The notes under the pieces: generated by a model
The model's input: the letters and a program-made list of their open reading frames with translations, nothing else
What the model was told of the DNA's origin: nothing
The model's database searches: none
Made by a program: the position numbers and the translations under genes
Assembly: GCF_947258575.1 (NCBI RefSeq)
Contig: NZ_CAMYIV010000010.1
Coordinates: 186,001 to 250,000 of the forward strand
Source of the DNA: an uncultured Alcanivorax sp.
Lineage (GTDB): Bacteria > Pseudomonadota > Gammaproteobacteria > Pseudomonadales > Alcanivoracaceae
Length of the DNA stretch: 64,000 nucleotides
Reading direction: 5' to 3'
Part shown: piece by piece, positions 38,276 to 39,654 of the stretch
How positions within the stretch are numbered: position 1 is the stretch's first letter
How the letters are laid out: each line of letters opens with the position of its first letter

Positions 38276-38827
38276 TTACAGCAACGCCCACATCCCGAAG
38301 CCGACAAACAGCACGGCACTGATTCGGTGGGCCCAGGTTTCCAGTTTGTCGCCGCCGAACTGATGCGCCAGCCAGATCACCGGCAGATTGGCGGCGATCA
38401 TGCCCAGGGTGGAGCCGCCCAGCACCGGCCAGAACTGATCCTTGAACTGTACCGCCAGGGCAATGGTGGCGAACTGGGTCTTGTCACCGATCTCGGCAAT
38501 GAAGAACAGCACCAGAGCAGTCAGGAAGGGGCCGAAGCGGGGGTTCTCATCCACTTTCTCATCGCCGTCCGGGATCAGCATCCACAGGCCCAGGGCGATA
38601 AAGCTGATGCCGAGAATCCAGCGCAGCCAGTCGCCGGGAATGGCGCCGGCCAACCAGTCACCAAACCATACCGAGGCGCCATGGTTAAGCAGGGTGGCCA
38701 CCACCACGCCAGCCAGAATCGGCCAGGGCTTGCGGAATTTGAGGATCAGGGCCAGGGACAGTAGTTGGGTCTTGTCGCCAATCTCGCCGAGGGCAACCAG
38801 CAGGAAAGAGCTGAACAGGGCTTCCAT
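38276..38827 (-). CDS. TMEM165/GDT1 (UPF0016) family probable manganese exporter
   Basis: Inner-membrane protein of 183 residues and six helices. The family signature E-x-G-D-K-T/S occurs twice (VALGEIGDKTQLLSLAL and FIAEIGDKTQFATIAL), forming the cation site. Bacterial members such as MneA export Mn(II). Start ATG 38827. The long upstream leader holds yybP-ykoY riboswitch elements, which supports regulation by manganese. The leader also contains the 266-bp palindromic element at 38926. Confidence 0.92.
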   Translation of the reverse strand: MEALFSSFLLVALGEIGDKTQLLSLALILKFRKPWPILAGVVVATLLNHGASVWFGDWLAGAIPGDWLRWILGISFIALGLWMLIPDGDEKVDENPRFGPFLTALVLFFIAEIGDKTQFATIALAVQFKDQFWPVLGGSTLGMIAANLPVIWLAHQFGGDKLETWAHRISAVLFVGFGMWALL

Positions 38828-38901
38828 GAACGTTTCCAGAGGGGCGGGATTGCGACACAGAGACACCACCGGTCAATCCCGCCCCAGCGGAATACCAGTG
38901 A

Positions 38902-39279
38902 TGTCTCAGGTCTCGTCAATCCTGGGGGAGCCTCTGACTACTTCCTTGCGTACTCAGCGTGTCCTGAAGCGTGCAGCTGTTGTGTCTTGTCTCGACGGCA
39001 AGGGTGGTTCCCTTTCCTAGAGGCAAGGCGCAGCAGATGTGCGCTTCAGGGCACGCCCTTCGGGGCTTTCATGCTGGCCCGCACTCGTCGTTGCGCTTTC
39101 TCTACAGGCAACCAGCCTGCCTTCAAAAGCGCGTCTAGATTGCGAACCAGCATGAAAGCCTGAGCATGCAAGGAAGTAGTCAGAGGCTCCCTAGACGCGG
39201 ACGCGGCCACCATGCGCATGCGGCGCAACTATGTTGATGACCGCCAAGGGGTGAAAACCGAGCGACTACTCCCCCAAGA
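38902..39279 (-). promoter_or_regulatory. Probable yybP-ykoY manganese riboswitch, interrupted by a structured element
   Basis: On the minus strand, upstream of the GDT1 gene. The 5' part (39279 to 39233) reads TCTTGGGGGAGTAGTCGC, a P2-like stem (CGCT...GGCG), then GGTCATCAACA. The 3' part (38922 to 38902) reads GGATTGACGAGACCTGAGA. These match the yybP-ykoY conserved pieces: GGGGAGUAG loop, GUCAUCAAC and ACGAGACC loop. TCTTGGG can pair with CCTGAGA to close P1, and TCAA with TTGA. Between the halves lie about 40 bases and then the 266-bp repeat at 38926-39191, where native aptamers have a variable loop. Assignment is by motif recognition only. Confidence 0.65.
38926..39191. mobile_element. 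266-bp MITE-like element with 24-bp perfect terminal inverted repeats
   Basis: Outer arms 38926-38949 (GGGAGCCTCTGACTACTTCC...) and 39168-39191 are perfectly complementary. Inside are two long arms. Arm one pairs 38957-38993 with 39020-39056, 37 positions with a single mismatch. Arm two pairs 39063-39077 with 39147-39161, then 39093-39099 with 39126-39132, then 39105-39109 with 39115-39119. All non-Watson-Crick pairs but one are G-U on the plus strand. No ORF over 60 codons has family features and no transposase is present. No target duplication is obvious. Confidence 0.7.
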
Positions 39280-39347
39280 CGGGGCAAACCTTAGCGGCAA
39301 TATTGTTTTCGGGCAAGTACAATGGGGCCAATGTTAATGACGCGGAT

Positions 39348-39429
39348 TGTAGGAGCTATGCTTGCATGGCGAACCGTCGAAGGCGATCACCGCAAGCAGG
39401 TTCGCCATGCAAGCAGCATAGCTCCTACA
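39348..39429. repeat. Palindromic repeat, family B
   Basis: 82 bp with arms TGTAGGAGCTATGCTTGCAT and AGCATAGCTCCTACA plus inner AGGTTCGCCATGC / GCATGGCGAACC. Same size and layout as 4184-4265. It lies between the riboswitch leader and slyX. Confidence 0.75.
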
Positions 39430-39444
39430 GAAAGAGGGTATTTC

Positions 39445-39654
39445 ATGAGCGACGCAGAACGGCTGGTCGATATCGAAACCAAACTGGCCTACCAGGAAGA
39501 CCTGGTCCAGCACCTGAACAAGGTGGTCAGTGATCAGCAGGGAAAAATCGACGAGCTGGAAAAGGTGTGCCGCAAACTGGTGGACCGGGTGCTGGATCTG
39601 TCCGAGGAAATGGCGGCGTCACGTATCGAGGATGCACCGCCGCCGCATTACTGA
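39445..39654 (+). CDS. slyX: SlyX family protein
   Basis: A small coiled-coil protein of 69 residues (DIETKLAYQEDLVQHLNKVV, then heptad-like helix ending EDAPPPHY). The pattern and length fit SlyX, whose role is unknown. ATG 39445 follows AGAGGG by about six bases. Its last seven bases overlap the converging gene at 39648. Confidence 0.85.
   Translation: MSDAERLVDIETKLAYQEDLVQHLNKVVSDQQGKIDELEKVCRKLVDRVLDLSEEMAASRIEDAPPPHY

Follow-up and report, generated by a model that had tools for sequence, protein, structure and literature searches.

A yybP-ykoY Mn2+ aptamer lies on the minus strand ahead of a GDT1/UPF0016 gene in the genome of an Alcanivorax, a marine, oil-degrading bacterium, and it is cut in two by a 264-bp element (39280-38903 of the window, by which we mean the whole 64-kb stretch of DNA that was analysed). 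We consider it probable, at roughly 0.7, that an IS5-type MITE transposed into the apical loop of the P4 helix of a standard aptamer, where it likely resides as a tolerated passenger. The sequences show the identity of both parts, the site of insertion, the lack of the insert in the relatives compared and the unchanged flanks, and the case constitutes a natural experiment in riboswitch tolerance: a mobile element more than twice the size of the aptamer has come to stand between strands that must meet if the metal is to be sensed.

The interrupted aptamer and its gene

In the order of the transcript the leader consists of P1.1, L1, a variable P2, P3 with L3, the 5' side of P4, the insert, GGATTGACGAGACC and the P1.1 partner CCTGAGAC. 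The helices P2 and P4 bear their customary names. The names P1.1, P1.2, L1, L3 and P3 are used as in PMC6754395, where the description of the aptamer places the Mn2+ site in L1 and L3 and presents P1.1 as the helix stabilised by Mn2+.

All features of the aptamer are on the minus strand. The 5' strand of P1.1, GTCTTGGG (39273-39280), has its partner CCTGAGAC at 38903-38910; the pairing is found in the relatives too, and among 26 of their sequences both partners have changed in two of the eight pairs. The preliminary description of this DNA had already proposed that these strands pair, and they do (39280-39273 with 38910-38903), the interval of 38902-39279 that it gave being one base off. The L1 strand GGGGGAGTAGTC (39264-39275), part of the Mn-binding core according to PMC6754395, holds the segment GGGGAGTAGT, invariant in the 26 aligned relatives, and on the 3' side of L1, GACGAGACC (38909-38917), GAC.AGAC is likewise invariant in the 26; the L1 motif GGGGAGUAG, the 3' GAGACC and the closing helix P1.1 are thereby all present (39264-39280 and 38903-38917). 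L3, TCAACATA (39230-39237), which is the Mn-sensing loop in PMC6754395, contains a CAACA that does not vary among the 26 relatives, and it is borne by the P3 hairpin (39204-39245), for which there is covariation and whose outer stem has a pairing probability of 0.99-1.00 with the insert in place. In the predicted fold the P4 5' strand GTCT (39193-39196), which lies at the left edge of the insert and overlaps a CTAG copy, pairs with the 3' strand GGAT (38919-38922).

Downstream of the aptamer follows the predicted expression platform (38828-38902, minus strand), comprising most of a hairpin A and a hairpin S that adjoins the start codon, and then a metal-homeostasis gene, namely that of a GDT1 (UPF0016) family transporter (38276-38827, minus strand; PF01169, 147.6 bits, E 1.3e-43). 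It had been claimed earlier that both halves of a yybP-ykoY element lie upstream of a GDT1 exporter gene, and the motifs, P1.1 and the matches to our covariance model R1 (see below) agree in this respect. Immediately 5' of the aptamer a promoter might be located (39288-39316, minus strand; by eye TAAGGT and TTGCCC with 17-base spacing), and GCTA[AT]GGTT recurs in most of the Alcanivorax and Alloalcanivorax leaders compared; a sigma-70 promoter scan and a terminator scan of 38830-39450 returned no site.

Covariance models

The search of the split leader with RF00080 that the preliminary description had called for did produce a match (35.3 bits, its 3' end falling inside the insert), which stayed below the gathering score of 45 bits, and in the whole 64-kb window nothing passes Rfam at gathering score. 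This miss weighs little, because the unsplit leaders of A. jadensis T9 (L015, 38.3 bits), DG881 (L017, 37.0 bits) and NORP25 (L018, 41.5 bits) also fall below the cut-off, and only three of 57 related genomes pass it, 34 of the 57 having a match at E <= 0.001. As printed in Rfam 15, RF00080 has P1 unpaired. Of the three unsplit leaders, T9 and NORP25 have a match that extends past GAGACC and hence beyond the aptamer.

Since RF00080 is a poor test in these leaders, a covariance model of our own, R1, was built from 26 of the 33 located aptamers of relatives, with the window left out. The leaders compared (L015-L049) represent 35 of 80 loci; the L1 motif occurs in 33 of them and is lacking in L045 and L047, and the RNAalifold structure of the 26 relatives has 29 pairs, 13 of them with changes on both sides. 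Run on the whole window, R1 detected the 5' piece with 66.6 bits (E 1.2e-13) and the 3' piece with 19.5 bits (E 0.013), the latter reading the second arm of the insert together with GACGAGACC as a pseudo-L1. The five insert-free leaders of the genus reached 109.0 to 124.4 bits; two of these (T9 and L165) are in the model, and the other three scored 112.0 to 124.4. Unsplit sequences that represent another leader or other families (L123, L124, L129, L137) gave 33.9 to 68.9 bits, so the first piece of the window scores like a distant relative. The split leader is recognised as yybP-ykoY far beyond chance, and on the evidence of motifs and covariation we assign it to this class despite the RF00080 miss, with Mn2+ binding as a prediction.

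Insertion site and comparison with relatives

When the orthologous leaders were compared, as had been suggested, the insert was absent from all 15 of the other GDT1 leaders of the genus, drawn from 16 other genomes (14 leaders were located by script and one by eye; in the remaining genome, G001, which has two RF00080 matches, the one examined is another riboswitch leader). Relatives that all carry the insert, an outcome which the preliminary description had named as refuting, were not seen. The distance from TCAACA to GACGAGACC is 44-62 bases in the 14 scripted leaders versus 312 in the window; in T9 it is 46, which makes a net extra length of 266 bases. Where T9 reads GCGTC-CTTCC-GGATTG, the window has GCGTC-[insert + flanking copies]-GGATTG, and the flanks on both sides of the insert are collinear with T9. 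The aptamer side is identical to T9 at 109 of 109 compared bases (87 before the insert and 22 from GGATTG on), while the remaining platform differs at 1 of 74, giving 1 of 183 for aptamer and platform together. The gene differs from that of T9 at 40 of 552 positions (7%; 31 of the 184 third positions), and the aptamers of five other relatives depart from T9 at 10-19 of 113 aligned bases. That the leader is closer to T9 than the gene is fits strong constraint, leader exchange or recent common origin.

The P4 apical loop, which took up the insert, lies apart from L1 and L3. The P4 tip varies in length among the relatives: by eye it measures some 2 bases in L028 but at least 20 in L018 and L048, so the earlier proposal that the insert fell into a tolerant peripheral loop finds support. 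Two leaders (L022 and L152) carry a 7-bp tandem duplication, CGGATTGCGGATTG, on the 3' side of P4, which may be taken as another sign that this arm tolerates changes of length. In NORP25 (L018, 2290-2428) the P4 tip GGGGAGTCTTGACTCCCC is followed by a CCCCCAGGATTG junction as in the window, and both are missing from T9 and DG881; this may be what an earlier insertion, identical or similar to ours, has left behind. As to the age of the event, the imperfect duplication described below and the junction common to NORP25 would point to an old insertion, and the near-identical T9 leader to a recent one.

The insert as a probable IS5-type MITE

The inserted element occupies 38927-39190. The preliminary description had spoken of a 266-bp insert in the form of a near-perfect palindrome: 266 is correct as the net length relative to T9, the element proper being 264 bp long, and the ends do form a perfect terminal stem of 24 bp, but two further hairpins are enclosed and the whole is not one simple palindrome. 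The terminal inverted repeat that comes first in the transcript, GGAGCCTCTGACTACTTCCTTGC (39167-39190, minus strand), agrees with the consensus at all but 3 of 19 positions, and both arms have these three departures in common; the second one, GCAAGGAAGTAGTCAGAGGCTCC (38927-38950, minus strand), resembles L1.

Eight near-full copies, this one included, are present in the own genome, and at E <= 0.001 every one of the 17 genus genomes gave matches (between 3 and 60 rows per genome, in some weak or partial), as did 37 of 46 genomes of the family. The ends GGAGCC...GGCTCC were recognised in 92 of 94 copies, and these 92 were analysed, leaving out L008, with ends too divergent, and L161, with ends outside the search range. 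Their lengths are 262-265 bp in 77 cases and 279-286 bp in 15, full-length relatives being over-represented in this set of best-scoring matches to the present copy. Perfect 4-bp duplications flank 28 of the 92 copies, compared with a mean of 5.5 and a maximum of 12 in 2000 shuffles; they are chiefly CTAG (the commonest, 8 of 28), CTTG, TTAA and TTAG, and the other 64 copies have no perfect one. The target duplication of IS5 is of the YTNR type. The present copy is directly bordered by TGGG and CTAG, which disagree at three of four positions; if one extra base is allowed (a G at 38926), then CTGG (38922-38925) on one side and the abutting CTAG (39191-39194) on the other match at three of four and can be regarded as an imperfect duplication.

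Shorter derivatives with the same ends measure 57 to 178 bp. Four of these (L155, L156, L157 and L164, 57-69 bp) consist of little beyond the two terminal repeats. A 1151-bp element from one genome of the genus encodes an IS5-family transposase (NF033581, 354.3 bits with a cut-off of 140), has perfect 4-bp duplications in both copies examined, and its ends show 2 and 4 mismatches in 19 to the MITE consensus. At E <= 1e-30 this transposase is absent from the own genome and was detected in 2 of 17 genus genomes, one of them with fragments only, so that it is no more than a possible driver of the MITE. On account of the copies, the ends, the duplications and the 1151-bp relative, IS5-type MITE is the most suitable name for the insert, and this probable assignment is a point added to what the first interpretation contained. 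Twenty of the loci with other copies were scanned with Rfam at gathering score and yielded no match, hence no second riboswitch host among these 20.

The consensus fold of the 77 aligned copies has 98.3% of its cells paired, and for 31 of its 94 pairs two or more copies have both partners changed. Altogether 118 departures from the consensus were counted in left ends, of which 101 are matched in the right end, so the arms keep their mutual complementarity; DNA-level correction or RNA-level selection might be responsible.

Predicted folding of the leader

In the predicted fold of aptamer plus insert the helices are those of T9, with P4 extended by the perfect 24-bp stem and the two hairpins. 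For the aptamer alone the probability of P1.1 is 0.89 with the insert versus 0.91 in T9, that of the outer P3 stem is 1.0 in both, and the inner P3 stem is paired in the dot-bracket of the window fold. In the window and in T9 alike, L1 is predicted as a small local hairpin instead of P1.2, and neither P1.2 nor the L1 core appears with or without the insert, in calculations that omit Mn2+ and tertiary contacts. When the whole leader was folded, the P1.1 probability fell to 0.0 in both the window and T9, and the competing hairpin A prevailed over the P1.1 state by 9.0 kcal/mol in the window and 7.0 kcal/mol in T9.

Crossing hairpins A and S (38828-38910 in the window) follow P1.1 in most of the Alcanivoracaceae GDT1 leaders compared (L015-L049). 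A longest-stem search, a simple procedure which in a few leaders picked a stem that is clearly not the intended one, placed the 3' strand of P1.1 in hairpin A as well in 27 of the 34 leaders, and in 33 of the 34 it made A and S cross. Taken literally, this arrangement would mean that binding of Mn2+ hides the ribosome site, i.e. Mn2+ OFF, which is the opposite of the Mn-induced mneA of Vibrio as that gene is presented in PMC13274385. The exposure of the ribosome site hardly separates the two states (0.46 versus 0.20 in the window, 0.22 versus 0.20 in T9), and judged from the platform Mn2+ may turn the gene either on or off.

Minimum-energy folds of the growing transcript were computed at 14 lengths. 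At every tested length between 120 and 330 the first arm of the insert engages L1 in full, over 12 bases; at length 110 it pairs with nine of them and at 345 with four, whereas L1 is free of it at 95 and at lengths of 360 and more. In these folds L1 is released once the second arm has been made. It is the three departures of this copy's ends from the consensus that create the match to L1. Among the 184 ends of the 92 copies, the two arms of this copy rank 1 and 2 in pairing with the L1 segment (-24.5 and -24.4 kcal/mol versus a mean of -16.3 with sd 2.2), its exact end variant was found nowhere else in the 17 genomes, and of the 7722 three-base variants of the consensus only 14 are as good. 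This comparison was, however, picked with the fold already known, and when each copy was judged against its own 100-base flank the window ranked only 3rd of 63; complementarity to L1 as a proof of recruitment was rejected on the basis of this control. A kinetic effect through capture of L1 by the first arm is possible in these models and is regarded by us as a lead.

Discussion

We propose that a 264-bp non-autonomous MITE of IS5 type would have entered the apical loop of P4 in the yybP-ykoY leader of a gene of the GDT1/UPF0016 (MneA-like) kind. Once transcribed into the mRNA, it would fold on itself into a closed, extended P4 arm that points away from the metal site, the helices of the aptamer would form as in the relatives once the 3' strand has been made, and Mn2+ would still be sensed; the GDT1 gene would stay under Mn2+ control, with the insert as a tolerated passenger and not a designed part of the switch. 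We are inclined to believe, with some reserve, that the switch does still work and senses Mn2+. There are points against the proposal as well: the identity with T9 may reflect only a recent insertion or an exchange of leaders, the duplication is imperfect here, and L1 is predicted to be held by the insert until the second arm appears.

The insert might instead have broken the switch, if the halves fail to meet in time or if the arm lowers transcription or translation, and expression would then be fixed at a high or a low level. This is the most credible of the alternatives, unlikely as we hold it to be: 264 strongly structured bases separate the strands of P1.1 and the first terminal repeat engages the whole of L1 over the tested lengths from 120 to 330, but the final predicted fold of aptamer and insert keeps the helices of T9, no compared base has changed relative to T9 (although a recent insertion would look alike), and 38830-39450, with no promoter- or terminator-like site, offers nothing in favour of a promoter brought in by the element. 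We give somewhat less credit to cleavage of the 24-bp stem by RNase III, which might leave a two-piece aptamer joined by P1.1 and the rest of P4, or else destabilise the mRNA; by analogy, and with the same limited credit, the insert would then be comparable to 23S rRNA intervening sequences or to Neisseria Correia elements. The predicted stem does run without a break over 24 bp, the arms of this copy agree even at its departures from the consensus (three of three), and for Correia elements in mRNA the account in PMC2649163 has binding and cleavage depend on symmetrical ends.

That the MITE has become a working part of the switch, either because transcription through the element times the folding of the sensor, the first arm capturing L1 and the second, its mimic, freeing it, or as an aptamer of two pieces cut by RNase III, we hold to be quite improbable; if true, either the L1 timing or the RNase III two-piece sensor would represent a riboswitch remodelled by a transposable element. 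Slightly less probable still is the specific version in which the element was recruited, its repeats acting as the partner and the mimic of L1 in a timed checkpoint where the first arm keeps hold of L1 up to its displacement by the second. The ranks of the two arms, the restriction of their exact variant to this copy, the scarcity of equally good three-base variants and the pseudo-L1 read by R1 in the second arm with GACGAGACC argue for recruitment; the choice of the test after the fold had been seen and the third place in the own-flank control argue against it. Moreover, the regulatory gain is not obvious, because L1 depends on a 3' partner that is in any case transcribed later than the insert. 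Finally, a repeat copy could have been wrongly joined into the leader by the assembly, the genome being a draft of 13 contigs and the family repeated, but we find this hardly believable: the flanks are collinear with T9 on both sides, no other copy in the own genome comes closer than 85% identity and the end variant occurs nowhere else in 17 genomes, so none of the copies examined could have been pasted in.

The preferred reading, a passenger MITE in P4, joins parts of known kinds. With the established yybP-ykoY elements (RF00080; yebN of X. oryzae, mntP and alx of E. coli, mneA of Vibrio) the leader has in common L1, L3, the switch helix P1.1, P3 and P4 as well as a GDT1/UPF0016 gene downstream; it differs from them in that P4 bears a 264-bp mobile element and in its Rfam score below the cut-off, as is also the case in three unsplit Alcanivorax leaders. 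The insert resembles the IS5-family MITEs and MITEs at large surveyed in PMC10969869 by its short size, the lack of a transposase, terminal inverted repeats, 4-bp duplications (imperfect in this copy), many copies and a self-complementary transcript, but in contrast to the MITEs treated in the relevant part of that survey it lies inside a riboswitch aptamer; there, MITEs forming riboswitches are called conceivable only. Correia elements (CREE) of Neisseria are likewise MITE-like repeats within mRNA, with a symmetrical stem as a target for binding or cutting by RNase III, and the part of PMC2649163 that deals with them does not place them in a riboswitch, where the Alcanivorax insert is found; cleavage in our case would be an analogy. 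The intervening sequence of 23S rRNA, as described in PMC4990558, is also a selfish sequence lodged in one helix of a functional, structured RNA, whereas the host here is a regulatory RNA in an mRNA. A Bordetella report (PMC8546581) was considered as a case of insertion in a yybP-ykoY riboswitch and was set aside, since the event concerned, where that report deals with it, is a duplication in the downstream gene. In the open-access full-text literature searched, no paper was found on a transposable element inside a riboswitch aptamer nor on this Alcanivorax element, and the combination did not appear there. The effect of the insert is directly testable, because the leader of T9, a close relative, is free of it and identical at the 109 compared bases. 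A working switch would mean that sensors can gain arms from transposable elements and survive; a broken one would show a way for a transporter gene to get out of metal control.

Additional observations

Between the aptamer and slyX, at 39346-39432 of the window, there is a REP-like palindrome, TGTAGGAGCTATGC...GCATAGCTCCTACA, which has 89 match rows in the own genome with both strands counted. Matches to microRNA families over this segment and over the insert were discarded as palindrome artefacts, far below the gathering scores. In genome G001 a yybP-ykoY match above the cut-off (L123, 52.7 bits) stands ahead of a different gene, perhaps an MntP-like one.
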